Shown here piece after piece: positions 2,112 through 58,818 of a DNA stretch of 64,000 nucleotides. The notes under the pieces were generated by a model. That model saw only the letters and a program-made list of their open reading frames with translations, did not search any database and was not told the origin of the DNA. The stretch comes from Hypomesus transpacificus (lineage: Eukaryota; Chordata; Actinopteri; Osmeriformes; Osmeridae), in NCBI RefSeq assembly GCF_021917145.1, contig NW_025813746.1, positions 47,501 to 111,500 of the forward strand, read 5' to 3'. The translations under genes and the position numbers were made by a program. Position 1 is the stretch's first letter. Each line of letters begins with the position of its first letter.

Positions 2112-8899
<6,788 letters not shown>

Positions 8900-17301: not shown

Positions 17302-17801
17302 NNNNNNNNNNNNNNNNNNNNNNNNNNNNNNNNNNNNNNNNNNNNNNNNNNNNNNNNNNNNNNNNNNNNNNNNNNNNNNNNNNNNNNNNNNNNNNNNNNN
17401 NNNNNNNNNNNNNNNNNNNNNNNNNNNNNNNNNNNNNNNNNNNNNNNNNNNNNNNNNNNNNNNNNNNNNNNNNNNNNNNNNNNNNNNNNNNNNNNNNNNN
17501 NNNNNNNNNNNNNNNNNNNNNNNNNNNNNNNNNNNNNNNNNNNNNNNNNNNNNNNNNNNNNNNNNNNNNNNNNNNNNNNNNNNNNNNNNNNNNNNNNNNN
17601 NNNNNNNNNNNNNNNNNNNNNNNNNNNNNNNNNNNNNNNNNNNNNNNNNNNNNNNNNNNNNNNNNNNNNNNNNNNNNNNNNNNNNNNNNNNNNNNNNNNN
17701 NNNNNNNNNNNNNNNNNNNNNNNNNNNNNNNNNNNNNNNNNNNNNNNNNNNNNNNNNNNNNNNNNNNNNNNNNNNNNNNNNNNNNNNNNNNNNNNNNNNN
17801 N
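17302..17801. other. assembly gap of exactly 500 N
   Basis: A round-number run of N is the usual placeholder for a scaffold join of unknown size. To the left lies the 5' end of nos1ap and to the right the 3' end of nek7, with neither gene's missing exons in the window. Distance and orientation across it should not be trusted. Confidence 0.95.
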
Positions 17802-18402: not shown

Positions 18403-20384
18403 ATGGCAGCCCTACAGAGTCCGTTCTACGGGGACAAGATGAACCTGTACTCCTTGTGTAAAAAGATCGAACAGTGTGACTATCCCCCTCTACCCTCTGA
18501 TCACTACTCTGAGGAGGTAGGTCTGCCCCGCCCACACTCACCCTCCTTCTACACCGACACTCCCCCTCCCAACACTCCCCCTGCCCCCCCCACACTCCCC
18601 CCCCCCCCCCCCCCCGCGCCCAAAAGTGTAACTACAGGAAGACTACAGGAAGAGAAACGACAGGAGGGGACGCATGTTTAAAGAGAAACGACAGGAGGTG
18701 ACACACGTTTAAAAAGTAGCGACAGGAAGTGACACGCGTTTTCAAACGTGACCACAAGTGACACGTGTGTCACTGGGCCCTTGCTGGACCACAGCCACAC
18801 ACCTGCTTTCTCCAGCAGTAACCCCGGCCGCTTTTCAAGGCCAAGTGCCGCAAGCCCCTGGCACCCTGTGTGTGCGTGTGTGCATGCGTGCCTGCTTGTG
18901 TGTGCGCGCTTGTATGTGTTGCTGGCCTGTGCTTGTGTGTGTGTGCTTGCGTGTGTATGTGTGTGTTCTGTATCGCCCCCAGTATCACCCCCATCCAGGT
19001 GAGAGAAAGAAAGAGAGAGGGAGCGATGGAGGGATGGAGTTGGGGTGCGCCGCCAGCGTCTGTCTGGATGTAAACAATCCTCCTGAAGGATCTGCAGCAC
19101 ACTGTCATCTGCTCATCTTTGTTGTGTCATTTACCTTCTCCTCCCGTCTCTCCCCTCCACCTCCCCCACTCTACCCCCCTCCTCCTCCCATCTCCCCCTC
19201 CTCCCGTCTCTCCCCTCCACCTCCCCCACTCTACCCCCCTCCTCCTCCCATCTCCCCCTCCTCCCGTCTCTCCCCTCCACCTCCCCCACTCTACCCCCCT
19301 CCTCCTCCCATCTCCTCCTCCTCCCATCTCCCCCCTCCACCTCCCCCACTCTACCCTCTCCCCTTCTCCCGTCTCCACCCTCTGTGCCCCCCTCCACCTG
19401 ACTCCACCCCCCCCAAAGCGAAGAAGCACATGAATATTTTACATATCTGCATCTCTACCCCCTGCCTCCTCCCCTCTTTCTCTCTCTCTCACTCCATTCT
19501 GCAGGACTAATTCTCAGACTGGTTGCATTTGCATCTCCCTTTATTTCTCGCTTTCACACACACACACACACACACGTTTGCCGAGCCCAGCGCCACGCAA
19601 CAGCAGCCAGGAAGTCGGCAGGTGGTTACCATAGCGACCCCCGCTCTGAAAATCTTTCCTTCTTTCTTTCGTTCTTCTTCTTTCTTTTTTTTTTTTAATG
19701 ATGGCGGTCGCTGTTCCGCCTCCGAACCTGTCTGTCTGTCTGCTCCAAGCAAGGCGCTCTGCTCGGCTTCAAGTAGAAAACACTGCCTCCGAGAGAAATC
19801 TCTCCGTTTGTGTGTGTGCGTGTGTGTGTAATTTTAAAAGTGTGTGCTGGTGTTCGTCTGTGTGCATGTCTATGTGCGTGTGACTGTGTGTGTGTGAAAA
19901 GTCTATTCACAAGGCCATAAGACAGTAGGCATAGCCTACTATTTCCCAGCGCGACTGCTTTGTTCACGTATGCTACATGTTGCCTGTTACTGAGGTTGTG
20001 GAAGTGTGTTGGTCCAGGTTCTCTTTACCACAACAAAGCCCCCAGACCCAGCCTGTCTGTCTGTCTGGGCTAAGTGACAAGCACAGGACTGGCCACGCTC
20101 TTCATGTCTTGGATGGCAGGATTGAGGAAGGCTCGCCCCCTACCAAACACACTAACCCCCCAACCGCTCACTCTACCCCCCCAACACACTCCCTCTGCCC
20201 CCCCCCCCCACACACACACACCCACACCAGCAGTAACCATTCTCACGTGTCCCATGGTCTCTGTGTTCTCCAGCTGAGGAAGTTGGTGGACATGTGCATC
20301 AACCCAGACCCCGAGAAGAGGCCCGACATCACCTACGTGTACGACATCGCCAAGCACATGTACAACCAGACCCTGGGGACCTAA
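18403..20384 (+). CDS. nek7: NEK7 kinase, last two coding exons
   Basis: Exon 18403-18516 (38 codons) encodes [20 protein letters not shown] and ends HYSEE; the last exon 20274-20384 encodes [20 protein letters not shown] and ends NQTLGT before TAA. Together they form the C-lobe end of a NIMA-related kinase. The residues [13 protein letters not shown] and TYVYD favour NEK7 over NEK6 (NEK6 has CICPDPNQRPD). NEK7 acts in mitotic spindle assembly and NLRP3 inflammasome activation. The ATG of the first exon shown is internal, since NEK proteins have the preceding WSLGCLLYE in an upstream exon that is absent here. In human, NEK7 is two genes away from PTPRC, which agrees with ptprc downstream. Confidence 0.93.
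19140..19365. repeat. 60-bp pyrimidine-rich minisatellite in nek7 intron
   Basis: Nearly four copies of a 60-bp CT-rich unit (CTCCCGTCTCTCCCCTCCAC at its start) lie between the two nek7 exons. The first three are almost identical. They generate the proline/serine-rich ORFs in this stretch, which are not genes. Confidence 0.88.
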
Positions 20385-35653: not shown

Positions 35654-38600
35654 ATGGCAGGTCTCGGTGGGCCGAAGGTCTTGCTGCTTTGGGCTGGGCT
35701 GCTTGGCTTGGCCAGATGTAAGTACTCATTTTTAAGTGATCATAATGTTGTTAGCTTTTGGAATAGCTGGAATATTGTGGAAATGCTGAACTTTGTTAGT
35801 GCAGCATGTTTTAGATGTGTGTGTGTGTGCACGTGTGTGTGTGTGTGTGTGTGTGCACGCACATGTATGTATGTGCATGCGCATGTGAGTCAACTCAAGT
35901 TCCCATTCCTCCAGCATGGATCTCAGGCCACTAGGATGTCATTTCTACAGTATTATTGGTTGCATACTCAGAAAGATTTGACCCAACATATAGTAACATA
36001 CAGCTCTCTGCCACAGAGAGGGATGTGGTTGACGCTGAATGCAGCTAGTTCTTTGTCTCTCTGTTCTGGTATGATCTTTTACACGTTACATTCTGTGGGT
36101 GGTTTCACACAGAACTAAAGAAGAATGCCACTAGGCCTCCACGAAAAAGGCAATTCACAGTCATACTCTCTGAAGCTTCCTCTGTTGTGATTGCATTTTC
36201 TCATTTTCGTTACAACTTTCTCTGTTGAAGTCTACAACCTGAAGGGTTATGTTTACAATTAGTTTTAAACGGGCAAGGTTTGGTGACAGGCTCCACTCTG
36301 CCCAGCACTCCTCCAACCTTACCCACAAACACCTCCACCTCTCAGGCTTCGAGCTAAACTGCACCACCAAACGGTAACCTATCTCTCCCTCACTTCCGTC
36401 TGTTTGGCACCCAGAACACTCACACACACACAAGCCCAGTGAAACGTGTTGACCCTCCTCTCTATCTTAATGCTGTCTTCCATTTTGCAGTCAGTGAGCA
36501 GACTGACCTCTTGACAACGACACCCTCTGACCTTCCAAGCACTTCCAACCGACAAACAAACCATTCTGCCCCAAACACTGTCGCCCCCAGCCAGGCATTA
36601 CCCGCAAGCAACTCCACCACTCAAAATCAGTCCTTACCTACCCCACCTACCCTCACTCCAACCTCTCTTGCAAGCACCCCTCCCAGCACCAAGCCAGTCA
36701 TCCTCACCACAGGTTGGAGCCTTCTCACTGAGATGGCGATTTACGATATCTAACTGACATCACTTTTAACCTCATGCTCTGCTTGTTATTCTGTTTTCAG
36801 GTCAGTCGTCAGGGCCGATAGGTGGTGAGTTATGTTTTTTTCGCCCAATTATTCTGTGTTTATGAGTGCCTCTCATTGATAAAAGTCTAGGGACTACATC
36901 ATTTGATTTATTTGTTTGAGTGATCAGTTGATATCAAATGGCAATCACAGACAGGAAGAAGCAGTGAGATGATCGGAAAAGAAGTAATAGGCCATCTTTT
37001 AAACAAACGACGAGCAGTAGTAAAAAAAAAAAAGAACATTTTAGTTCTTAATCCCCTTGAGTAGAGATGAGTCTATCATATTTAAAGACACCTTTGTTTA
37101 CTTATATGGTTTGGTGACAGGCTCCACTCCTCCAAGCAATCCTCCAACCTTACCCACAAACACCATCTTTCAGGCTTCGAGCCAAACTGCACCACCAGAC
37201 AGTAATGCATCTCTCCCTCACTTCCGTCTGTGTGGCTAGCTTGTTTTGTACTTCTTTTGAGTGGGTTCCTAATCTGTGTGCTCTATTTTTTTCAGGCACC
37301 CAGACTGCACCAAACTGTGAGTTATTGTTTCCTTAAATTTGCATTGTTAGTCACTTTGTCGTTAAATGTGTAGGACCTGCTGTAGCAAAGGTATCCAAAC
37401 TGGATAGTTCTGGCATATTTTAGCGAATAGTTAACCTCTTGAAATGTATCACCAGTATTCAGGCCGTTAAGAAGCTACAGTACGCATAAACTACCATACA
37501 TAGAAAATATACAGGAGTACAGTGTAATTTAGTCACTATGAATCAGAATTGAAAAGTGTTCCAGATCCATCAGAAACATTTGTCTTTAACGTTTCGGTTT
37601 CCAGGCACATATTCAGTGGAAAACATCAAACATGACTTACGGATCAACATTCCCAGATCGAATACATCTGACCCTGACGACTATGTCATCAGTCTTACTG
37701 ATATGTCAGGCAACAAAAGCACATATACGGTGGAAAACACCACACCAGGCTCGGAGATCAACATTACCAGATCAACTACATCTGACCCTGACTATGTCAT
37801 CCGTCTCACCAAGATGCCAGGCAACAGATGGAAATTCAAAGATCCCCTGAAATGCACAAGCATTCAATCAAGCAATCCACCAGTCAACTCCACTCTCTAT
37901 ACACTCTCCTGTCCAATATATATGTTAAAGCCTTGTACCAACTACAGTGTGATGGTGGAGTTAGGCAATGAGATCTGCAAACTAAGTGATAAAAAGCCTT
38001 TCCACACTGGTCAAATGGGTATGTAGAAATCTGTTTCTTGGCACATATTTGGTCTCAGATCAGGTCTCTCATGTTCCTTGTTCAGACGTATTTTAATGTG
38101 CGTTTATCAATGTGATTTAGAATACACAGAGTAAAAGAATTCTCTGCTTAGAATATACTACACAGAAAAAGGTACTAGATCTTAAATGAAAAATGAAATA
38201 TGACTAAAATCAACATTTCTGCCTTTCAGTTGAAAACGACATCTATCCCAATACTGAGTGCGTCCCAGGGTATCTTTGCTATGAGAGTAAATGGGATATT
38301 AGTGACACAATACAGCCCAAGAAGGCCTCCATTCAGACATGCAATAATACTAATCACCAGTGTATCAAGTTAACCTCCGATGACTTTTGCTCAGAACTCA
38401 AAACAAACTTTAGCTGTTTTACTCCCAACGTTATCAAAACACCCATCACCCTAGGTAAGCCATGGTTCTTCTGATAGTAAACATAAGTTATATGTCTGAA
38501 ATGCTCTAAGTAAATTAATCCATTTTATAATAATTCAAGTATTGATTCTGTTTTGTTTTTATCTCTATTAGATCTATTTGAGAGAAGTTCAGTTGAAATT

Positions 38601-40280
38601 GAAATAAAAACTTCCAATAAACTTCCTCTTCAACCAAATTGGACTAACAAACCAAAGAACTGTAGCAAGAGTATAGAACTGGATTATTCCTGTCAGGGTG
38701 AGCAGAGAAATGTGCTTTACTTCACAACAATGTATCATAGTGTTTGTCTGTGACACTGTAAAAAGTGACATGAATCAGTAGAAAACAAATACAAAATAAC
38801 ATGATTTGTCTACTGTGTGGGTTACAAACACAGGACCAGGTGCATCTAATGTGACCATCTCTATGTTGGAGCCCTACACCCGGTATAACTGTACTGGGCG
38901 TGTCAAACTCAACAATCAGACAACAAATAATACCAAGTCCTTTCTCGTCAACGTAGAATGCAGTGAGTTGAAAATTACTAAAGAAAAATGACAGGATGGA
39001 TTCCCTGAATCTCAACTTCCTATCTGGGTGATCAACAAGGATGCAATGTGACCATTGTTTAATGTTTCATTCTACAGGGTTAAACATAACATTGTCAAGC
39101 CCAACCCAGAGCAATACATCCATTAGCCTGAGTTGGGAGACAACCTCTGAAAACTGCCCACACGAACATCTTTTGAAGCTCTCATACAACGGCTGCTGCA
39201 CACAAGTGAATGGCAAAACAGGTAGAGGCCTGTACGATTTTACTATTTGAAAAGTTACTGTGTGATAGTGGGACCTCTTCATAACGTTTTGTTCTCCCCT
39301 TAGAATGCTATTCAGGGCTAGTTACAAACAGCCGTGTTGAGATCACAGGATTGGAACCATATAAAGATCATACATGTTATGTAATTCCACATTACAATCG
39401 CCAGCCAGTACCGGAGAAGACATCGTATCCAGTAGACCTAAAGACCAAACCTGGAAGTAAGTATCTGCTACTAATTAATAATGACAAATTATTATTTAAT
39501 GAATATTTAGGCCTAGTCAATGTTGCTCTGCAAACAGTAGACCTATCTGATGTTCATCATATTTACATTGTAATCTGGGGGGGGGTTCCAAGCTAAAATG
39601 TACTCTTTCTGTATTTCCCAGTTCCTGGAAAAGTCGAGATCTCTTCTCTGATTTTGAAAGAAAACAATCATTACGAAATTAAATGTAGTCCACTACAGAA
39701 AGAAAAATATAACGGAAAGAGCATTACATACATAGCCTTTCTCGATGACGGACAGAAAAGGAATAACAGCAACTGCCAATTTGATTTCAAAGATCTTAGC
39801 TATTCCACAACGTACACACTAACTGTAAATATTTATTATCTTGTGAGATTCCAAAAATTACAATATTAGAACTTGGAGGGAGAACAGTTGGAGTAACCAG
39901 ACATTTGATGTTTTCTAGGTGTTTGCTTTCAACGGGGAATTCAACAGTACACCGTCAGTAAAACATATTGTCACTCGCTGTAAGTAGGCTGGTTTTGGTA
40001 TTGTTTTTTTCTTGCCCAATATCACGTAGGACTAAACACCACTATTTTCCCAGCTTTTTTTTTTTTTTTTACTGTATCTGCTGGCCCTGTCGTTTCTTAC
40101 CGGAGTGGGCATGACTTCTGTCCCTGTGATGTTGTCTTCCCCTTCTCAGACAATGACAATGCTGCCCTCTGGATCTTGGGTTTCCTCATCATCCTCAACT
40201 CCCTCACCCTCATCTTCTACACAATTTATCTTCTGTATCGCAAGAAGTTGGGTTACGTCCACGATCGCTGTGTCACATAA
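35654..40280 (+). CDS. CD45-like ectodomain and membrane span without phosphatase domains (ptprc copy 1)
   Basis: Exons: signal peptide 35654-35717 ([20 protein letters not shown]), variable A 36290-36373, B 36491-36712, C 36801-36824, D 37121-37201, E 37296-37316, then ectodomain 37605-38018, 38230-38454, 38572-38697, 38834-38962, 39078-39221, 39304-39456, 39622-39824, 39919-39979, and the membrane exon 40150-40280. Variable and early ectodomain exons are phase 1. Exon A carries a TAA where copy 2 has CAA, so it must be skipped; the others join to 665 codons plus TAA. The first large ectodomain exon has an internal duplication (TYSVEN... and TYTVEN...). After the hydrophobic AALWILGFLIIL...IYLLYRKK segment the frame runs into what is intron in copy 2 and stops after GYVHDRCVT. 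The donor used in copy 2 (GTACGT) reads GTTACG here, and no PTP exon follows. Either a functional truncated receptor or a young pseudogene. Confidence 0.8.
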
Positions 40281-40397
40281 TGCGGCGGCTTTTGGTATGT
40301 CCGCCTGAACGATATTTCATGTTTAAATGTCATGAACCTATATCAAGTGATCAACTTGATCTTCTTCCATTTTTGCGTCGAAGGTTTTTCCTGAATC

Positions 40398-40762
40398 GGC
40401 CACGAGGGGGACGGTGTCCTCTGCCTGCTGCGCTGCCTGCCCCCTGCTGGTCGGAGGCTACCGCGCTGCCTGCCCCCTGCTGGTCGGAGGCTACCGCGCT
40501 GCCTGCCCCCTGCTGGTCGGAGGCTACCGCGCTGCCTGCCCCCTGCTGGTCGGAGGCTACCGCGCTGCCTGCCCCCTGCTGGTCGGAGGCTACCGCGCTG
40601 CTTGCCCCACGGCCTGCTTCACTTCCCCGTTCTACACTGGGAACGCTCCATCCAGAGCGTCATAGAGGAACTGGTACTGCTCCTGAGATACACATGCACA
40701 CGCACACGCCCACACACGCACGCATGCACGCACACACACAGATACATTTATATATATATATC
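40398..40762 (-). pseudogene. inverted, broken fragment of the last ptprc exon
   Basis: On the minus strand this reads as the end of an intron (TG-rich, then CTCAG) followed by GAGCAGTACCAGTTCCTCTA, the start of the ptprc last exon (61351 on). It continues through DALDGAFPV, then has TAG where the real gene has CAG. About 70 bp corresponding to 61,410-61,480 are missing, and the next part is expanded into a 33-bp array. The outer end matches the CGAGGGGGACGG area near 61,550. It is a remnant of the 3' end of copy 1, inverted by rearrangement. Confidence 0.88.
40430..40605. repeat. 33-bp tandem array, five units, each with a CTCF-type motif
   Basis: Five head-to-tail 33-bp units derive from the ptprc last exon segment at about 61,490-61,525. 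Each holds CTGCCCCCTGCTGG (starts 40436, 40469, 40502, 40535, 40568). Its complement CCAGCAGGGGGCAG fits the CTCF core consensus CCASYAGRKGGCRS at every position. All five are on the minus strand. Because 33 is divisible by three, the array gives spurious ORFs. Confidence 0.9.
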
Positions 40763-41163
40763 AGGCATGCAAACTCCTCACCTTTATGAAACCTAAATGA
40801 GTCACCTAGGTGATTTGTGCAGATCTGATGAGAAAATATTGTGGGGGGGGGGGGGGGTCGTGGCCAACACAGTGTGGCCAACAAAGCATTTTACACGTGT
40901 TTCGCAACTTTACAACTGGCTCTGGAACCAATCGTCACTCCTAATGCCTAAACCTCACAGCCAATCAGGGGCAGAGTGGGGAGAAGTTTTCTACATTGAT
41001 CTAGCCTCTAAAATTTGCTGTCAAAGTGCACTAGATTGATACATTTACCTTTAAAATGTAAGAAATGTTCTTCTGGGGGAGCATGCCCCCGGACCCCCCT
41101 AGAGGGTCAGGGGTTCACCCTATCGTTCTCACCTTTTTTACCCCTGACCTCTTTGCATGCCTG
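40762..41163. mobile_element. 402-bp non-autonomous hAT-like element
   Basis: Ends CAGGCATGCAAA (left) and TTTGCATGCCTG (right) form a perfect 12-bp inverted repeat. Flanks ATATATAT and ATATATAC resemble an 8-bp target duplication, though the AT-rich context weakens this. There is no ORF of note. It sits at the outer edge of the inverted exon fragment. Confidence 0.8.
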
Positions 41164-42930
41164 ATATATACACACAGGCATATATACACAGGCACACACA
41201 CAGTGTGTGTAACAGGTCCTGTGTAACAAGTTATATAAAAGATCCGTAGCTCCTAGATTATAATTTACAGTACATTCAGTCATTCAGTAACATTTGTATT
41301 TGTTTATCCTCAGAGCCATACAATACAAACAGTGTATACAGTCAGTATCATAACGGTTGTTCTGTGAATAAATTTAGAAATGGATCAAAAATTGACTTGA
41401 CGGACTTTAGGGAAATTTACTTGCACATCTTGTCCTTGGTGTCATTCATTTCCGTGTTGTTAGTTGATGATTCATTAGAACATTTGTTGTCTAGCCTTTC
41501 AATCTCTCAGCAAAATGTAGGCTAATTATTTGGCTAAAGGATGCCACACACGTTGTATCAGACAGAAGTTGTTCTATAAATGTGTAGCACGACATTAAAA
41601 ACATTTTATAGTCGGTTGACTGATTGCGTTGTTGTCCCCAGTCAAAGGAATAAACACACAAGGACATCATAAACATTCAATGGTACTGTCTATTGAAGAG
41701 GTCTGTCCTTAACCACTGATCAGTTGACAATTAAAGATTATGATTATTTTATTACTTTTATACTGTTTGTAATACTCTGAATATAATAAACAATGTTTGA
41801 TCAATACTCTGCTATATTACGGTCATGAGAACATAACCCTTGGTCATGTCCAGGAGAGAAATATGCCTCTCTATGAATTATGTTGCTTGTATCATTGATA
41901 AACTGACATTTTGCTGTTTGCTTATGCCTGCATAGCCATAAGTTAGTTTGTCAGTGGTCACAATATTACCAAATTGTATAATGCCATGCAACTTTGAACA
42001 AGGCCATTTCTAGGAGCCCTATCTAAAGACTTAAACAAAAGCTATCTAGCATGCAGCGTCCTCTTTCTGTGCTTGCAAAGGCTGTGTTGATTATCACCCC
42101 CTGATGTTTCTTGTGAGAATTTAAAAAAAACTTGTCATACTATAACTGCCCTGATTCCTGTATTCTTTGTCCAGTCTTCTGAGATCCTCAACTTGAGTGT
42201 ATCAGACACCTGCACTTTATAGATCTATAATAAATACGTTGATTTTGTCTTGAACTTGTACTTGGTGATTCACTTACTTGACTTAGTACCCAATTGATGT
42301 GAAAGTACCATCTAATACGTCTTCAGTATTAACCCTGTAAGTTTGTCTGCAGTTGTGAATTTAATGGTGTAGAATCATGTGTTAAAGCTTAATATTACGA
42401 GTAATATCAATATGCTTGTGACAAATACACTTTCGTATCACGTTCTACCAATCTGCTGGTTTCTGGTACTGGATACATGGATGACGATCCTGGGCACAAA
42501 GAAAAACAGGTTTTATAGAAGGCAAGTAAATCAAGCAATGCTTGAGGGTCAAAAGCACATACTACCACAGTAGCTGTGACAACGATCTGACGAGGGGTGG
42601 TTGGAAAGCCGGGTTGAAGTATTGCAGGATGATGAGGTAATGGGCGGCAGGTGTGTAGGATCCAGGCAGTATGATACAGGCAGGATGGTACAGGAGAACC
42701 AGCAGGGGGCGTAAAAGGGACAGGGACCAGGCCGTGGCTGTGGTCGTAACACACCATTGCTAAAAAGAGAAGTGTATTTAAAAGGCAATATAAACAAATA
42801 TTTGTAATAGGCTACATTCATTAGTAAGTCAATAGCACCACCAAGTTAGCAAACACATCAAATAAACTCAATACAATTAAACTACACTGTTGCCACATGT
42901 TGGGAAATAACCAAATACAAGCAATATAAC
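41164..42930. other. spacer between the two ptprc units
   Basis: This AT-rich sequence has no recognised exon. AATAAA-type signals near 41,370, 41,650, 41,787 and 42,228 could serve a copy 1 transcript. Part of 41,343-41,440 resembles 21,635-21,700 (TATCATAACGGTTGTTCTG and TTTACTTGCACATCT), probably a shared old repeat. A near-consensus CTCF-type site (CCAGCAGGGGGCGT) is at 42699-42712. Confidence 0.45.
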
Positions 42931-43057
42931 CAATGTGTGTGGAACTCACATACACGCCCCCCACGTACACACATACACACACATACACGTTTAACAATAG
43001 CACACAAAATGTGTGTATGGGTGCATTTGTGTGTGTGCGTGTGGATGTGTGTGTGTG

Positions 43058-44206
43058 TTTCAGCTAGAATCGAGGCCTGCCTCACAGACATCTCCGCCTG
43101 GATGACCAAGCACCACCTCCAGCTGAACCTCGCCAAAACAGAACTTCTCATCATCCCGGCCAAACCCTCATCCCCTATGATCTCTAAATCACCCTGGGAT
43201 CTGTGACAGTGACCCCTTCATCGTCTGCCAGGAACCTCAGGGTTACCATGGATGACGAGCTCTCCCTCACAGCCCACATTGCTGCAGTCTCCCGGTCGTG
43301 TAGATTCACCCTCTGCAACATCAGGAAGATCAGGAGATACCTGTCTTAGCATTCCACCAAGCTGTTAGTCCAAGCACTTGTCCTCTCAAAGTTGGACTAC
43401 TGCAACTCGCTTGCCGGTCTCCCAGCATGCGCAACCTGCCCTCTCCAGAGGATTCAGAACGCAGCAACCCGCCTGATCTTCAACCTACCCAGACGCTCCC
43501 AGGTCACCCCGTTCTTCATCTCCCTCCACTTGCTACCCATCACGGCCCGCATCAGATTCAAGACCCGGTACTGACCTTCCGAGCGGTGAACGGGACTGCA
43601 CCCGACTACATCCAGTCTCTCGTCCAGCCTTACACCCCCACCCACCACCTACGGACTTCTTCTGACAACCATCTGGTGGTCCCACCTCTCAAAAACGCCT
43701 GCTCCCAACCCAAGCTCTTCTACTGTCTGTCCCCAATGGTGGAATCATCCCCCCACCCCCATCAGAGACACTGACTGTCTCCCCACCTTCAAGAAAAAGG
43801 CTAAAGACGCACGTTTTCTAACGGTACTTAAGAAAGATTGTTCGTTTATTTCCTCCAGGAACTCAATGACACCTTTTGAGGAACTAGTTGCACTTGTTGG
43901 TTAGCTGTAACTGATTTAGCTACTTGTACTTGCTGTGAATTATATTATTGTTGCTTGCTTTCCTCCAGGTACACTCTGGACACTTTTCGAGGATCATGTT
44001 GTTTAATTGTAACTTGTTTAACTACATGCTCTTCTGGTTCTACCCATTGGCTCTTATTTGCTTTTGACAATGTATGCTTCATGTTTTGGCTACCCACATT
44101 GTTTTTGGGGCTATCTTGTTGTTTATGATCATTGACCTATGCACCTTTTGCTCTTTCTTGTAAGTCGCTTTGGATCAAAGTGTCTGCTAAATGACTAAAT
44201 GTAGTA
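43058..44206 (+). mobile_element. 5'-truncated L2/CR1-type LINE, reverse transcriptase C-terminal part
   Basis: Broken frames encode the end of a non-LTR reverse transcriptase: ARIEACLTDISAWMTKHHLQ, then KLDYCNSLAGLPAC, RIQNAATRLIFNLPR, PITARIRFKTRY and NGTAPDYIQSL. It ends in GTAAGTCGCTTTGGATCAAA and TAAATGACTAAATG, an L2-type 3' tail. Stops and shifts make it inactive. It splits a sequence that is continuous in unit 1 (near 33,920), so it inserted after the duplication. Confidence 0.88.
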
Positions 44207-48134: not shown

Positions 48135-49754
48135 ATGGCAGGTCTCGGTGGGCCGAAGGTCTTGCTGCTTTGGGCTGGGTTGCTTGGCTTGGCCAGATGT
48201 AAGTACTCATTTTCAAGTGATCATAATGTTGTTCGCTTTTGGAATAGCTGGAATATTGTGGATGTGATGCTGTACTTTGTTAGCGCTCAGATCGGGGGAT
48301 ATGGAAGTACTCAAAAAGGCAAGAATCAGGGTTTCACACACATTTTATGTTGTGTGTCAATCCTGAAACCATTAAGTTTAGGCAAGCAATGTTTTAACTT
48401 GTTGCATTTGGTATGGCGGTTTCGTACTGGATATTTTTTTGATAGGATAAAGTGCTATATTTTATACAGTATTCGACCATCCCCTTATTTTCTTGTAAAG
48501 CTTCGATAAAAAGCGGCAGAATTTGACTACATTTCTGAAAGACCTCAATCTTAATTCTTCCTAAAGATGCAACAGCAGCTTAAGAGGACATCCAAAATAC
48601 GTAGCAGCGATTACCAAAGCGTGATGGTCTTCGAATTGTCTTGAAACCAAAAATTTGAAAACAGTTTATGTAAATGTATTACACTGGTTTCACTGCTGAC
48701 AGATGATGTTTTAAGTCCTAAATTGTACAGTTGAAAAAGGCCTATGTGAGTATTGTGTTACTGGCTGTGTGTACGAGTGTGCAAATATATATTTGACATA
48801 AATGATAAGCTATCGGGGATGAAGAGATGGTCTGGGTGTGTCCCATTAAGAGGCTATGAAGTGTGTACGCGCATGTTTGCATGTGTGTGTGTGTGCACGC
48901 GCATGTGTGTATGTGTGCAGGTGCATGTGAGTCAACTCAAGTTCCTATTCCTCTAGCATGGATCCCAGGTCACTAGCATGTCATTTCTACAGTGTTGTTG
49001 GTTTTCTGCACACAGAAAGATTTGACAAAACATATAGTAACATACAACAATATGGACAACATACAGATGCTTTTCTCCAAAGCAAGGCACCCCCCTTAAG
49101 GATTCGAACCTGCAACCTCATGATCTGCTGTCAAATACCCTACTTCTGAGCTGTACCTAACCATTTACATTTAGTCATTTAGCAGACGCTCTTATCCAGA
49201 GCGACTTACAGTAAGTACAGGGACATTCCCCCCGAGGCAAGCAGGGTGAAGTGCCTTGCCCAAGGACACAAGTCATTTTGCACGGCCGGGAATCGATCTG
49301 GCAATCTTCAGATTACTAGCCCGATTCCCTCACCGTTCACCGTACACCGTCAGCCAGTAGCATGCCTGAATCGAGACGTCCTGTAGCGTGACTGAGATAA
49401 ACTGGCATCATTCTGATCACAGCGCCCCCCTTCTTGGTGATGGCGATCCGTGTGCAAGACACAAGGCTTGGGCACGGTTTTAGGAGAGCTCACGCAGTGT
49501 AGTCGCACAGCCCTCTAGTTGACCACTTCCGTGTTCCATTTTAAGCTCGCTGCCTGCACCTCCTGTCACAGGCTGAGACTGAGCACTTCCTGTTGAAAGC
49601 AAAGATGGAGTTTTAAGAAATTGTTTAGAAAAGAGGAAGCCTTGAAGCTCCGGAACGAAGAAGTTTGCTTTGAAATGATCAGAATTACAACCATCTGTCT
49701 GTCTGGGTACAGGTGAAGGATTCTCATCATTAAGACACCTAGTAGTAAGGGAGA

Positions 49755-49848
<94 letters not shown>

Positions 49849-49851
49849 GAC

Positions 49852-49932
<81 letters not shown>

Positions 49933-52900
49933 GAAAGAGAAAGAGGGAGTGAGAAAGAGCCACAGAGAGATGTGGTTGATGCTGAATGCAGCTCGCCTCT
50001 GTCTCTCTGTTCTGGTATGATCTTTTACACGTTACATTCTGTGGGTGGTTTCACACCTCCTCAGCCCTCATGCCATTGAGAAGAAAGACTATGACTAAAG
50101 AAGAAAGCCACAAGGCCTCCAAGAAAAAACGAAAGCAAAACGAGTCCGCCATTTCACAGTCAGACTCTCTGAAGCTTCCCCTGTTTTGATAGCATTTTTT
50201 CTTTTTCGTTACAACTTTCTCTGCGGAAGTCTATAACCTGAAGGGTTATGTTTACAATTTGTAACTTTGATCATTTACGGTATGAGAAAAATACAATGTA
50301 CTGTATCCCTTGATCCCTGAACTGAAAAGTGGCAGGTAGATGAGGTGTGTAAATATATATGATGGTGAATTGTGTGTTTTGGATGTGTGTTTTTCTCCTC
50401 CTGGACCTGGTTTATCAAACGCCATTTTCTAAAGAAGAAGAAGAGAAAAAGAGGCACATAGGCTTGATAGATGTGATACAAGCTACAATATTTTACATGT
50501 GTAAACAGCTATAACACGTACCTGCAGTTATAACAGTCAAAACATGCACTGTATACATGTTATACTAGCATGACAAACTAAGAACCAAAAACACACAAGG
50601 CCTCCTTTGTCAGCCAGGAGTGGGTGGAGGAGAGAGGAGTGGGTGGAGGAGAAAGCTGTAACAGCACTGAGCATGCATCTCCAGCATCGCAAACAGAGCT
50701 TGACTCAACCACATCCTGGGGCCTAACAACCTGTCTTTCAGCTTCCAGATCCTTCCGCCTCTCCTGCTCTAGTGCCTATGCGTGACTGTGTCTGGACAGC
50801 AAGTCCATTTCAGCAGAGACAACAACTGTAGTTTATGTATCTTTGTCGTTAATATGTTAATATGAGTGTACGGTTTATAAGTCTAGTCGACATCTTGCCA
50901 GGTAGGCCTAAAGTAAATAACATTATTTGACACAAGAAGGTACATAAGTAGGAATTCTATGTTGAGATCTTCAAGTTATTAAAGTAAAAAGAAAAGAAAG
51001 ATGCCAAGAAAAAAAATTAAACTAGTCACAACTGACGATGTCAGATGTGCAGATGTCACAGGCATGCAAGAAACGCAGCTCGAGTCTCCGGTAGCGCTAG
51101 CACGGAGAACGAAGCAGGAAACTGCGGCGGGCCCTGATGAAAGTAGCGCCTGCTCGCGCTGGAGCCTCGTTGCCGTAGCAACCTTTAGCGTGCCTCTCTT
51201 GCTTCTTGGCGGGGTGACGACTGTAGCAACACCCTTTTCCTCTGCCGGTTTTGCAGCATTAGAGCCCCGCGCGGGACTGGGAGGAAGTAACAGTCAGAGA
51301 GATGCAGTGTTAATGGCGAGGTGGCGCTTGTGTTGGCGTGATGATGACCTCATGCTCTGCTTGTTATTCTGTTTTCAGGTCAGTCGTCAGGGCCGATAGG
51401 TGGTGAGTTATGTTTTTTTCGCCCAACTATTCTGTGTTTATGAGTGCCTCATTGATGAAAGCCTAGGGATTACTCGCTTGATGCATTTGTTTTAAGTGAT
51501 CAGTTGATATCAAATGACAATCACAGACAGGAAGAAGCAGTAAGGTGATTGAATAAGAAGTAATAGGCCATCTTTTAAACAAATGACGAGCAGTAGTAAA
51601 AAAATAAATAAACAAAAAATAAAGTTGTTATACTTAGAGTAGAGATGAGTGTATCATATTTAAAGAAACCTTTGTTTAAACTGATATGGTTTGGTGACAG
51701 GCTCCACTCCTCCAAGCACTCCTCCAACCCTACCCACAAGCACCTCCACCTCTCAGGCTTCGAGCCAAACTGCACCACCAAACGGTAACCTATCTCTCCC
51801 TCACTTCTGTCTGTCTGGCACCCAGAACACTCTCACACACAAGCCCAGTGAAACGTGTTAACCCTCCTCACCATCTTAATACTGTCTTCCATTTTGCAGT
51901 CAGTGAGCAGACTGACCTCTTGACAACGACACCCTCTGACCTTCCAAGCACTTCCAACCAACAAACAAACCATTCTGCCCCAAACACTGTCGCCCCCAGC
52001 CAGGCATTACCCGCAAGCAACTCCACCACTCAAAATCAGTCCTTACCTACCCCACCTACCCTCACTCCAACCTCTCTTGCAAGCACCCCTCCCAGCACCA
52101 AGCCAGTCATCCTCACCACAGGTTGGAGCCTTCTCACTGAGATGGCGATTTACGATATCTAACTGACATCACATGTCCTTGCCGCTAGCTGTCTGGCTAG
52201 CTTGTTTTGTACTTCTTTTGAGTGGGTTCCTAATCTGTGTGGTCTATTTTTTTCAGGCACCCAGACTCCACCAAACTGTGAGTTATTGTTTCCTTAAATT
52301 TGCATTGTTAGTCACTTTGTCGTAAAATGTGTAGGAACTGCTGTAGCAACGGTATCCAAACTGGCATATTTTAGCGACTAGTTAACCTCTTGAAATGTAT
52401 CACCAATATTCAGGCCATTAAGAAGCTACAGTACACATAAACTACCATACATAGAAAGTATACAGTAGTACAGTGTAATTTAGTCACTATGAATCAGAAT
52501 TGAAAAGTGTTCCAGATCCATCAGAAACATTTGTCTTTAACGTTTCGGTTTCCAGGCACATATTCAGTGGAAAACATCAAACATGACTTACGGATCAACA
52601 TTCCCAGATCGAATACATCTGACCCTGACGACTATGTCATTAGTCTTACTGATATGTCAGGCAACAAAAGCACATATACGGTGGAAAACACCACACCAGG
52701 CTCGGAGATCAACATTACCAGATCAACTACATCTGACCCTGACTATGTCATCCGTCTCACCAAGATGCCAGGCAACAGATGGAAATTCAAAGATCCCCTG
52801 AAATGCACAAGCATTCAATCAAGCAATCCACCAGTCAACTCCACTCTCTATACACTCTCCTGTCCAATATATATGTTAAAGCCTTGTACCAACTACAGTG

Positions 52901-55900
52901 TGATGGTGGAGTTAGGCAATGAGATCTGCAAACTAAGTGATAAAAAGCCTTTCCACACTGGTCAAATGGGTATGTAGAAATCTGTTTCTTGGCACATATT
53001 TGGTCTCAGATCAGGTCTCTCATGTTCCTTGTTCAGACGTATTTTAATGTGCGTTTATCAATGTGATTTAGAATACACAGAGTAAAAGAATTCTCTGCTT
53101 AGAATATACTACACAGAAAAAGGTACTAGATCTTAAATGAAAAATGAAATATGACTAAAATCAACATTTCTGCCTTTCAGTTGAAAACAACATCTATCCC
53201 AATACTGAGTGCGTCCCAGGGTATCTTTGCTATGAGAGTAAATGGGATATTAGTGACACAATACAGCCCAAGAAGGCCTCCATTCAGACATGCAATAATA
53301 CTAATCACCAGTGTATCAAGTTAACCTCCGATGACTTTTGCTCAGAACTCAAAACAAACTTTAGCTGTTTTACTCCCAACGTTATCAAAACACCCATCAC
53401 CCTAGGTAAGCCATGGTTCTTCTGATAGTAAACATAAGTTATATGTCTGAAATGCTCTAAGTAAATTAATCCATTTTATAATAATTCAAGTATTGATTCT
53501 GTTTTGTTTTTATCTCTATTAGATCTATTTGAGAGAAGTTCAGTTGAAATTGAAATAAAAACTTCCAATAAACTTCCTCTTCAACCAAATTGGACTAACA
53601 AACCAAAGAACTGTAGCAAGAGTATAGAACTGGATTATTCCTGTCAGGGTGAGCAGAGAAATGTGCTTTACTTCACAACAATGTATCATAGTGTTTGTCT
53701 GTGACACTGTAAAAAGTGACATGAATCAGTAGAAAACAAATACAAAATAACATGATTTGTCTACTGTGTGGGTTACAAACACAGGACCAGGTGCATCTAA
53801 TGTGACCATCTCTATGTTGGAGCCCTACACCCGGTATAACTGTACTGGGCGTGTCAAACTCAACAATCAGACAACAAATAATACCAAGTCCTTTCTCGTC
53901 AACGTAGAATGCAGTGAGTTGAAAATTACTAAAGAAAAATGACAGGATGGATTCCCTGAATCTCAACTTCCTATCTGGGTGATCAACAAGGATGCAATGT
54001 GACCATTGTTTAATGTTTCATTCTACAGGGTTAAACATAACATTGTCAAGCCCAACCCAGAGCAATACATCCATTAGCCTGAGTTGGGAGACAACCTCTG
54101 AAAACTGCCCACACGAACATCTTTTGAAGCTCTCATACAACGGCTGCTGCACACAAGTGAATGGCAAAACAGGTAGAGGCCTGTACGATTTTACTATTTG
54201 AAAAGTTACTGTGTGATAGTGGGACCTCTTCATAACGTTTTGTTCTCCCCTTAGAATGCTATTCAGGGCTAGTTACAAACAGCCGTGTTGAGATCACAGG
54301 ATTGGAACCATATAAAGATCATACATGTTATGTAATTCCACATTACAATCGCCAGCCAGTACCGGAGAAGACATCGTATCCAGTAGACCTAAAGACCAAA
54401 CCTGGAAGTAAGTATCTGCTACTAATTAATAATGACAAATTATTATTTAATGAATATTTAGGCCTAGTCAATGTTGCTCTGCAAACAGTAGACCTATCTG
54501 ATGTTCATCATATTTACATTGTAATCTGGGGGGGGGTTCCAAGCTAAAATGTACTCTTTCTGTATTTCCCAGTTCCTGGAAAAGTCGAGATCTCTTCTCT
54601 GATTTTGAAAGAAAACAATCATTACGAAATTAAATGTAGTCCACTACAGAAAGAAAAATATAACGGAAAGAGCATTACATACATAGCCTTTCTCGATGAC
54701 GGACAGAAAAGGAATAACAGCAACTGCCAATTTGATTTCAAAGATCTTAGCTATTCCACAACGTACACACTAACTGTAAATATTTATTATCTTGTGAGAT
54801 TCCAAAAATTACAATATTAGAACTTGGAGGGAGAACAGTTGGAGTAACCAGACATTTGATGTTCTCTAGGTGTTTGCTTTCAACGGGGAATTCAACAGTA
54901 CACCGTCAGTAAAACATATTGTCACTCGCTGTAAGTAGGCTGGTTTTGGTATTGTTTTTTTCTTGCCCAATATCACGTAGGACTAAACACCACTATTTTC
55001 CCAGCTTTTTTTTTTTTTTTTACTGTATCTGCTGGCCCTGTCGTTTCTTACCGGAGTGGGCATGACTTCTGTCCCTGTGATGTTGTCTTCCCCTTCTCAG
55101 ACAATGACAAAGCTGCCATTGGGATCTTGGGTTTCTTCATCATCCTTACCTCCCTCGCCCTCATCTTCGTCGTCTACAAAATCTACCTTCTGCATCGCAA
55201 GAAGTTTGGGTACGTCCACGATGGCTGTGTCACGTAATGCGGCGGCTTTGGCATGTCAGCCTGATCGAGATTTCATGTATAAAGGCCATGAGCCTATTTC
55301 AAGTGCATCGCTCCATGGCCTTCTTCCATTTTTGCGGCGAGGGTCAACACTCTAATTTCGAACGTACTCTTTTTCTTCCCCAGCAACAACAATGAAACTC
55401 TTGAGCTGATTGAGCAAAGTAAGTGAATCTTTCATGAGTCCCTTTTTTGTGTCTGTTCAGTGTCAATCTTTATTGGGAACAATGTAAAGGGAGAGCACAA
55501 TGCGTGAGCCACTTCATGCGGCCACTGGCACTATCTGTATAAAAAGGCAAGAGATGTCCCCAGTACGTAATAAGTGAATGTTCACCATAAGTCGTTTGAA
55601 TCTAGAACCTTCTTTATACAAAACTGTATAAAGTTTTGTATAAAACGTTTGTTTACGTATTTTGCTGATAATCGGCCGATGCTTGCCTAGGCAACGAGGA
55701 CAGCCTGTTGAACGTGGAGCCCATTGTAGCAGACCTCCTCCTTGACACGTACAAGAGGAAGATAGCAGATGAGGGTCGACTGTTCTTAGCCGAGTTTCAG
55801 GTGAAACTGGGAACCCTTCTCTTTCCTCGCTTACGTCCTCATTCGTTACTTCACTTAAGTACACACCTTTTCAGTTTACAAATACGTATTTTTGGGGTTT

Positions 55901-57539
55901 GATTTCATTTGATATGCTCTCAAACTTTCAGATGACTGTCAGACTGTTGACAGACTCAGACTGTAGTAGCTTTGATTTCATTTGTTAATAGTTAGTGGTA
56001 GTCTACTAATGTTAACTTTATGATGATATTACGTATCTAAACCATCCTAGTCAATTCATTTACGCTACAGTTTATTTACATTTGTATGTATCTCCCCCCA
56101 GATATCTGATTGTTTACAATAAAACAAAAGTATTTGTTGAGATATATGGCCCCCTCATTTTAAGATTGAATAACATTCTAGCTATGCTACTGTCATCAAC
56201 CATTTCCCCGTTTCGGCCAACTCCTCCTCTCACGTAGTCGCTGTCTCCTTCTAGAGCATTCCAAGGATCTTCAGCACCTACTCAGCAAAAGAAGCCAGGA
56301 AACAATGCAATCACGCCAAGAATCGCTACATCGACATCCTGCCTTGTGAGTGAACAACAGTGTCAACCCTTCTGCCCAGAGCATTTACATTTAGTCATTT
56401 AGCAGACGCTCTTATCCAGAGCGACTTACAGTAAGTACAGGGACATTCCCTCCGAGGCCAGTAGGGTGAAGTGCCTTTCCCAAGGACACAAGTCATTTGG
56501 CACGGCCGGGAATTGAACCGACACAGTTGACCCAAACAGATCCGAGCGAGGTCCACCTGAAAGCGTTCCGTCATGGTGCGTCTCTCTTCGTTGTTTTGTC
56601 AGATGATCACAACCGCGTCCAGCTGACTTCTGGGAGAGGAGAGACAGGATGGGACTACATCAACGCCAGCTTCATAGACGTGAGGAGGATCAGTCAGACT
56701 TGACTGAGAAAGTTGTTTATCTTTTTCACATTTTCATGTCGGCCTAGATCACGTGTTACATTTACATTTAGTCATTTAGCAGACGCTCTTATCCAGAGCG
56801 ACTTACAGTAAGTACAGGGACATTCCCCCTGAGGCAAGTAGGGTGAAATGCCTTGCCCAAGGACACAATGTAATTTGGCACGGCGGGGAATTGATCCGGC
56901 AACCTTCTGATTACTAGCCCGATTCCCTCACCGCTCAGCCATCTGACTCCCGTGTTGTTTTGGTGTCACTAAGAGAGACTGATCTTATGTTCCAAACACA
57001 GAAGCTGATGTTGTGTGTCTCTTTCATGACAGGGTTACAAGGAATCAAAGAAGTACATAGCAGCCCAGGGTGAGATCATGTGTGTCTAAATATATATATA
57101 TGAGTCATTATAAATACTCATTTATTCAACTCACTGAAGTCTGTAGACTGAAGACAGATCGTGTGTTTGTTTTTGTGTGCGTGCACTGTAATGTGTGTGT
57201 GCGCATATAAAAATGAGTGTGTGTGTGTGTTTGTTTGCAACAGGTCCAAAGGAGGAGACTGTAGCTGATTTCTGGAGAATGATCTGGGAGCAACAGTCAT
57301 CCATCATTGTCATGGTGACCCGTTGTGAGGAGAGTAACAGGGTAAGAGGATAGCTCTCATCATTATCGTCATGGTGATTACACAGACTGTAGCTGTCACT
57401 GTTGAAAGTTCTGTTCCTTTTCGTTGCCCACAAGTATAGCCTGCCCAAACAAGAAATACCTTTTACATTTTTATGTATTTATGGAAAAAATGAGGATGTT
57501 GACAGTGGAGGTGATGATAAAGGTTATGATGATGATGAA

Positions 57540-57570
<31 letters not shown>

Positions 57571-58786
57571 CGGATGATGATGATGTTGGCAGTGATGATG
57601 AAGATGACGATAAAGACACGGATGATGATGATGATGATGTTGGCAGTGATGATGAAGATGACGATAAAGACACGGATGATGACAATGATGTGCTTGCAGA
57701 ATAAATGTGCCCAGTACTGGCCGTCCGCTGAGGACGAGGCAGAGATCTTCGATGAGTTTGTGGTGAAGCTGAATGGAGAGGACCTCTGCCCCGATTACAT
57801 CATCCGCCGTCTCACCCTGACTAACGTGAGTCTCCAGCTCTCCGTGGAAACATCACTCAGTAGACTGACAGTGTGGCTTCCCTTTCTCCCTCTCTTACCT
57901 CCCTGTGGGTGTGTATTCATGTGTGTGTGTGTGGGTGTAAACACATGTTGTGTGTGTGTGCTGTGTGTGTCCTTCCAGAAGAGGGAAAAGTCCTCAGAGA
58001 GGGAGGTGACCCACATCCAGTTCACCAGCTGGCCGGACCACGGCGTCCCAGGGGAACCCCACCTTCTCCTCAAGCTGCGACGCCGCGTCAACGCCTTCAA
58101 GAACTTCTTCAGCGGACCCATCGTCATTCACTGCAGGTGGGGCACGGCCACTAAGAGCTCCATGTCATGCGTTTAAGTAGTGAAGGCATTATGTAATACA
58201 TGGTCCTATCGTATGTGTGTGTATATGCTTGGGTGTTTGTGTGTGTATCTTTCGTGTGTGTGTGTGTCTGTGTGGGTGTGTGGTGTGTTTGTGTGTATTA
58301 TGTGTGTGTCTGTGTGTGTATAATGTGTGTGTCTGTGTGTGTATTATGTGTGTGTTTGTGTGGCTGTGTCTGTGTGTGTATTATGTGTGTGTGTGTGTGT
58401 GTTTGTGTGGGTGTGTCTGTGTCTGTCTGTGTATTATGTGTATGTTTGTGTTTGTGCGGGTGTGTGGCGTGTCTGTGTGTGTGTGTGTACTATGTGGGGT
58501 GCGTGCAGTGCGGGAGTGGGGCGTACTGGCACCTACATCAGCATAGATGCTATGATGGAGGGTCTGGACTCAGAGGGACGAGTGGACATCTATGGTTTCG
58601 TGGTCGGGCTCCGTAGACAGAGGTCCCTCATGGTCCAAGTGGAGGTAAACATCTGCTGGAAACACACACACACACATTTACACTCAAACACACATAGATG
58701 CGTACACACACATGAACATTTAGGGCAGTATGTGACAAATCATGCATTTGTACAGGATATAGGTGTGATCAATATATTGTTTAATC

Positions 58787-58818
<32 letters not shown>

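Follow-up and report, generated by a model that had tools for sequence, protein, structure and literature searches.

The finding of most consequence in a 64,000-nucleotide stretch of the Hypomesus transpacificus genome (assembly GCF_021917145.1, contig NW_025813746.1, positions 47,501 to 111,500 of the forward strand; hereafter the window) is a second gene related to ptprc, the gene for the receptor phosphatase CD45, which sets lymphocyte activation thresholds. The DNA of this second gene (copy 1, 35654–40280) encodes a membrane-anchored CD45 ectodomain without a phosphatase, and its neighbour (copy 2) is a ptprc gene that has phosphatase exons. Over most of the ectodomain the two copies are almost identical, introns included, between flanks that are far more diverged. 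Phosphatase-less CD45-like proteins are annotated in many other fish, of which copy 1 is probably an independent example in the smelt lineage. We have considered whether it acts beside CD45 as a paired receptor or decoy, and what the same sequences say for a pseudogene.

Copy 1: a CD45 ectodomain gene without forward phosphatase exons

Copy 1 lies on the plus strand and comprises 15 exons, namely a signal-peptide exon (SP), 13 internal exons (A–M) and a membrane exon (Table 1). An AG acceptor and a GT donor flank each of the 13 internal exons, SP is followed by a GT donor and the membrane exon is preceded by an AG acceptor, so that the signal peptide, mucin exons B–E, ectodomain exons and membrane span carry the GT–AG sites that an earlier note on this DNA had claimed for them. 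Within exon A there is an in-frame TAA where copy 2 has CAA. Because this exon consists of 84 bases between phase-1 borders, its skipping preserves the frame, and when it is omitted copy 1 reads 665 codons, as the same note had stated, with the C-terminus RKKLGYVHDRCVT. We found no disabling change in any non-skippable exon of copy 1; exon A alone carries a stop. The ectodomain matched by sequence the CD45 structure chains 5fn8, 5fmv and 8vse, and the closest protein match to the window was the PTPRC of Osmerus mordax, with an ectodomain 68% identical. Copy 1 thus resembles full-length PTPRC/CD45 in its signal peptide, mucin exons, fibronectin type III (fn3) ectodomain and membrane span, but differs in having neither of the two intracellular protein tyrosine phosphatase (PTP) domains and in stopping 10 residues beyond the pair of lysines next to the membrane, with a tail that reads GYVHDRCVT. 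This tail contains no immunoreceptor tyrosine-based activation (ITAM) or inhibition (ITIM) motif and no Y-x-N form, and so offers no signalling motif that would oppose CD45. Within exon F a segment of approximately 110 bases is duplicated (37605–37826 and 52556–52777), and when the copies were compared with each other the repeats were about 79% alike.

The short tail can be traced to the donor site that follows the membrane exon, which is TGG/GTACGT in copy 2 and TGG/GTTACG in copy 1 (scores 3.3 and 0.6, respectively, on a small position matrix built from 20 local donors). With a score of 3.3 the copy 2 donor is itself weak, and read-through there would yield the matching tail YVHDGCVT and a stop. 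The change from GTACGT to GTTACG therefore lets the copy 1 membrane exon run to a stop that is present at the same place in copy 2. Homology between the copies extends for 105 bases beyond the copy 1 stop, after which inverted copy 2 sequence begins (blastn, standard scoring); the inverted pieces correspond to copy 2 positions 61149–61572 and contain stops. We found no forward phosphatase exon at copy 1, the sole remnant being this inverted and broken last exon. The proposal that the tail results from alteration of a copy 2-type donor with no PTP exon behind it was therefore upheld, the inverted remnant being an addition to it, and we infer that inversion accompanied by deletion is the simplest cause of the phosphatase loss.

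In copy 2 the exons from signal peptide to membrane exon join without a stop, and beyond the membrane exon there are matches to O. mordax PTPRC phosphatase residues, in order, exon by exon. The splice model of copy 2 covers the signal peptide to the juxtamembrane exon, and its phosphatase exons were placed by matches; three genome-search matches over the phosphatase region cross stops, probably by extension past exon ends. When the 437-Mb assembly was searched, an ectodomain probe and a membrane-exon probe each gave two matches, in both cases within the window. Phosphatase matches at CD45-level identity were confined to copy 2 and the inverted remnant, and those on other contigs, at 35–58% identity, look like other receptor phosphatases. 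No third CD45 copy was found elsewhere in the 437-Mb assembly by this search, which scores best candidates only.

Table 1. Positions in the window of the features of copies 1 and 2
Feature	Position	Strand	Remarks
Copy 1 exon SP, ATG and signal peptide	35654–35717	+	1/64 bases differs from copy 2
Copy 1 mucin exon A	36290–36373	+	In-frame stop, must be skipped; 6/84 differ from copy 2
Copy 1 mucin exon B	36491–36712	+	1/222 differs from copy 2
Copy 1 exon C	36801–36824	+	0/24 differ from copy 2
Copy 1 exon D	37121–37201	+	Counterpart is copy 2 exon A; 7 substitutions, one 3-base indel
Copy 1 exon E	37296–37316	+	1/21 differs from copy 2
Copy 1 ectodomain exons F–M, overall span	37605–39979	+	Pfam fn3, 2e-10
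Exons F–M, first four	37605–38018, 38230–38454, 38572–38697, 38834–38962	+	
Exons F–M, last four	39078–39221, 39304–39456, 39622–39824, 39919–39979	+	
Copy 1 membrane-span exon	40150–40280	+	Read through altered donor to stop; donor scores and substitutions in text
Near-identical tract common to both copies	37516–40159 (copy 2, 52467–55110)		3 differences in 2,644 bp, introns included
Inverted remnant of last PTPRC exon	40386–40707	−	Stops; 33-bp tandem repeats at 40430–40608
Inverted remnant of intron preceding last PTPRC exon	41164–41347	−	
First AATAAA 3' of copy 1 stop	41367–41372	+	Candidate polyadenylation signal
Copy 2, ptprc with phosphatase exons	48135–61683	+	Last open frame ends at 61683
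Copy 2 exons	SP 48135–48198; membrane 55101–55209; juxtamembrane 55384–55419; phosphatase from about 55690	+	

A near-identical tract between diverged flanks

The tract common to the two copies is 99.9% alike and spans exons F–M together with their introns. Divergence between the copies is 2.7–9.1% in upstream blocks, approximately 13% in the membrane exon and approximately 17% in its intron; at a background of 4%, the Poisson probability of three or fewer differences in the tract is 2e-41. It stops 10 bases into the membrane exon, the remainder of which carries 16 substitutions in 121 bases plus a 6-base in-frame indel, and the 105 bases after the copy 1 membrane exon contain 18 substitutions relative to copy 2. 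Such a tract looks like the product of recent gene conversion, although its cause and direction are deduced from the alignment, and copies 1 and 2 would then be adjacent genes whose ectodomains have been kept alike by conversion, an assembly error being improbable. As the flanks are far more diverged than the tract, the duplication is older than the ectodomain alone would suggest. Furthermore, all of the 36 membrane-region residues of copy 2 agree with O. mordax (100% identity), compared with 69% for copy 1, and the change therefore lies on the copy 1 side.

The order of the mucin exons is A-B-C-D-E in copy 1 versus C-A-B-E in copy 2 (36264–37316 and 51347–52277); this shuffling suggests repeated unequal exchange in the region. 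Four UnaL2 LINE 3' elements are present, at 44147–44200, 49169–49222, 56389–56442 and 56766–56819, the first ending just ahead of the start of the copy 2 upstream repeat at 44206. Elsewhere in the window there are 500 N at 17302–17801 and two minus-strand matches to SNORD37 (5274–5341 and 6201–6266), surrounded by minus-strand frames that resemble an elongation factor 2 gene. The open frame at 20200–20384 has an end that resembles that of NEK6/NEK7, and NEK7 is a neighbour of PTPRC in human.

The tract bears directly on what the open frame of copy 1 can be taken to mean. The earlier note had pointed to that frame, but we do not accept it as evidence of selection: exons F–M lie in the recent tract that is near-identical to copy 2, in which the introns are equally alike, and for this reason their openness proves no function. 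Exons SP, B, C and E together show 3 changes in 331 bases, compared with 11 to 50 non-coding changes per block, but this conservation was likewise set aside as a sign of constraint, as the low divergence continues into flanking non-coding sequence. Outside the tract, both coding indels are multiples of three, as against four of 30 non-coding indels (Fisher P about 0.03). The dN/dS comparison that the note had called for on the diverged membrane exon gave dN 0.108 and dS 0.24, hence a ratio of 0.45, which is below 1 as constraint would have it but is founded on few changes. In neutral simulations with 16 substitutions the membrane span stayed open in 70–79% of runs, and open and hydrophobic in 31–71%, a range set by the treatment of the indel and the cut-off.

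Short CD45-like proteins in other fish

With copy 1 and an alignment of its short relatives as protein queries, 126 distinct CD45-like fish proteins were retrieved, 22 with a phosphatase domain and 104 without, a ratio that carries no meaning since such searches favour short proteins by length; the 104 include some fragments, chimeric models or isoforms. The search for truncated paralogues in related fish that the earlier note had suggested, run here on proteins, thus found short CD45-like forms in many percomorph genera, and its premise that such a gene would be rare, vertebrate CD45 being normally a single gene, is contradicted by approximately 100 annotated phosphatase-less CD45-like fish proteins (some of them fragments or isoforms). 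Going by species names and their taxonomy, the short matches all come from percomorphs, save for P0124 from the salmonid Hucho hucho, a 260-aa fragment of a CD45-like ectodomain that has no phosphatase.

A membrane span is kept by 80 of the 104 phosphatase-less proteins and is missing from the model in the other 24. The span is followed by a Y-x-N-like tail in 55 of the 104, 52 of these being Y-x-N proper (one, P0026, is probably a chance match in a chimeric model), by a stub tail of 20 residues or fewer, comparable to that of copy 1, in 19, and by other sequence in 6. A span could be detected in 20 of the 22 full-length proteins, and Y-x-N was found behind it in none of the 20. In some species several short proteins are encoded on contigs of equal size, presumably one contig in each case (four in Thunnus thynnus, seven in Channa argus and four in Sparus aurata), and in Pampus the loci of the short and full proteins are numbered consecutively. 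Proteins such as Pagrus P0005, T. thynnus P0012, P0018, P0019 and P0020, and those of C. argus and S. aurata resemble copy 1 in combining a CD45 ectodomain and membrane span with absence of PTP domains, and in having an ectodomain close to that of CD45 from their own lineage. Copy 1 differs from this wider set in having arisen locally from the neighbouring copy 2, as judged from the alignment of its membrane exon and intron with those of that gene.

When a careful tree was made from nine short/full pairs, hand-picked from 22 short proteins (six pairs from the same species, three from the same genus or tribe), together with O. mordax, each of the nine short forms was sister to its own full form with 100% bootstrap; the O. 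mordax branch was flagged by the program as long. A single clade of short forms with independent ectodomain evolution was rejected for these nine pairs (AU test, P 2e-46). A larger quick tree, for which 73 of the 126 proteins were used along with copy 1 (trimming left the full-length models P0106, P0107 and P0113 too short to be kept), was in agreement: it required 16 label changes, 13 of them forced by starred branches, and placed copy 1 as sister to O. mordax; its clustering was no better than that of shuffled labels, 283 of 500 shuffles being equally low. Between full-length proteins of 10 genera (45 pairs) the median identity was 39% in the ectodomain and 86% in the membrane region. In local alignments with the full form of the same genus or tribe, 22 short proteins were 42–94% identical in the ectodomain, and the 20 of them with a span were 36–78% identical in the membrane region. 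The two sets of comparisons show opposite conservation of ectodomain and membrane region, as is also described for CEACAM paired receptors (PMC5112662, PMC2832619). These comparisons suggest that the ectodomains of the short fish forms evolve in concert with CD45 of their own lineage, which is likelier than fresh duplication in each lineage because tails are shared across families.

A structure predicted for the short relative P0010 from Lates, modelled from 28 sequences, had a mean pLDDT of 76.7. Its best solved match was human CD45 d1–d4 (5fmv, E 1.1e-14), with TM-scores of 0.25 by query and 0.41 by target, which are low values, and its second was CD45 in complex with adenoviral E3/49K (8vse).

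Among the literature matches listed, no title or abstract opening described phosphatase-less CD45 paralogues in fish, which does not establish their absence in print. Published work reports seven transcript variants of Atlantic salmon CD45, on chromosome 10 (PMC6362898), a single ptprc in a zebrafish table (PMC2933243) and a ‘phosphatase c-like’ transcript in a sea bass table (PMC5684396); the passages covered of a paper on how CD45 antibodies react in wolffish, sea bass and lumpfish mention no such paralogue (PMC11143355). In zebrafish, ptpn23b is, like copy 1, a PTP duplicate without a PTP domain, but it is not a receptor of the CD45 type and derives from a catalytically inactive PTP (PMC2933243).

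A possible partner of CD45 or a pseudogene

We favour, with the scales about level, the interpretation that copy 1 is a phosphatase-less paired or decoy partner of CD45, similar to CEACAM3, whose ectodomain is maintained by conversion. In receptors of the CEACAM1/CEACAM3 type, related genes have a homogenized ectodomain and a different membrane region and tail, as do copies 1 and 2, and gene conversion is described as keeping the regions that bind their ligands alike (PMC5112662, PMC2832619). The comparison has its limits, as CEACAMs are a different protein family, copy 1 is without a signalling motif and a pathogen ligand is hypothetical. According to this proposal, copy 1 is a tandem duplicate of ptprc; it has lost every forward phosphatase exon, an inverted piece of the last exon remaining. 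Decay of the donor would have made the membrane exon the last exon, so that transcription, if it occurs, would produce a short-tailed type I membrane glycoprotein of 665 residues. Gene conversion would hold the ectodomain exons equal to those of phosphatase-bearing CD45 as the membrane span and tail drift, and on leukocytes copy 1 would present the CD45 surface to ligands or to proteins of pathogens yet produce no phosphatase output, like CEACAM3 beside CEACAM1. Of the decoy or regulator role advanced in the earlier note, the encoded phosphatase-less, membrane-anchored ectodomain stands and the role is a fair deduction from it; the supposed rarity, and the open frame as a sign of selection, do not. 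The broader proposition that ray-finned fish have repeatedly made and keep phosphatase-less CD45 partners whose outer half is continually copy-edited to match, with a Y-x-N signalling tail common to percomorphs and, in a smelt, an independent version lacking this tail, we put forward tentatively, leaning slightly towards doubt.

Several observations weigh against a partner role. Exon A of copy 1 contains a stop, and an open membrane exon was rejected as a sign of function, being common in neutral simulation. At SP, B and C, conversion and constraint are indistinguishable, since the low divergence reaches adjacent non-coding DNA. Copy 1 does not have the Y-x-N tail carried by the 52 proteins of the larger fish subgroup, and no [IV]Y.N was found in the three plus-strand frames of 40281–44200, where a tail exon behind copy 1 might lie. 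No truncated O. mordax paralogue appeared in the fish protein searches. The evidence from other fish comes for the most part from gene predictions, in which exons of tandem arrays may be wrongly joined. Two Oreochromis niloticus short proteins that are not among the nine tree pairs, P0059 and P0073, are 71% and 75% identical to Pundamilia CD45 as against 44% and 42% to the O. aureus model.

The strongest alternative, which we consider a serious if doubtful one, is that copy 1 is a pseudogene, that is, a truncated tandem duplicate with an ectodomain intact only through conversion refresh from copy 2. The exon A stop, the decayed membrane-exon donor and the replacement of the phosphatase exons by an inverted, broken remnant are what such a history would leave; a membrane exon that is both open and hydrophobic is expected in many neutral runs, and the departure from O. 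mordax in the membrane region is confined to copy 1. Against a pseudogene are the frame-preserving indels in exon D and the membrane exon, the membrane-exon dN/dS of 0.45 (few changes as there are), and the comparable short paralogues with similar tails in many percomorph genera. Copy 1 itself may still be a pseudogene.

Compatible with the paired-receptor proposal, though unlikely, is an action of copy 1 in cis, whereby its ectodomain and span pair with or dilute full-length CD45 of the same cell and so tune phosphatase access to antigen receptors. The near-identical ectodomain would suit such a role, and regulation of CD45 by dimerization or membrane distribution has been discussed (PMC4379584), but the membrane span is the diverged part, here and in other fish. 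That a haplotype or collapsed-repeat error in the assembly created the second copy or the identical tract is very improbable: the contig is only 298,619 bp long, far below the multi-megabase contigs of the assembly, 5,000 N occur in the 10 kb before the window and a tract 99.9% alike could have come from an error in the consensus, yet the copies differ in exon order, in the presence of forward phosphatase exons and in divergence both upstream and around the membrane exon, and no further match was found elsewhere in the assembly.

Should copy 1 indeed be a phosphatase-less partner of CD45, its meaning would lie in what has been retained. The mammalian CD45 ectodomain is described as positively selected and bound by viral proteins, and its fast evolution is attributed to pathogens (PMC4379584). 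If a partner family tracks CD45 in its ectodomain yet has given up the phosphatase, this would indicate that selection acts on the outer surface as such, and the pathogen-driven hypothesis would become testable in fish. Antibodies, probes and markers directed at CD45 in fish may, moreover, report several genes.

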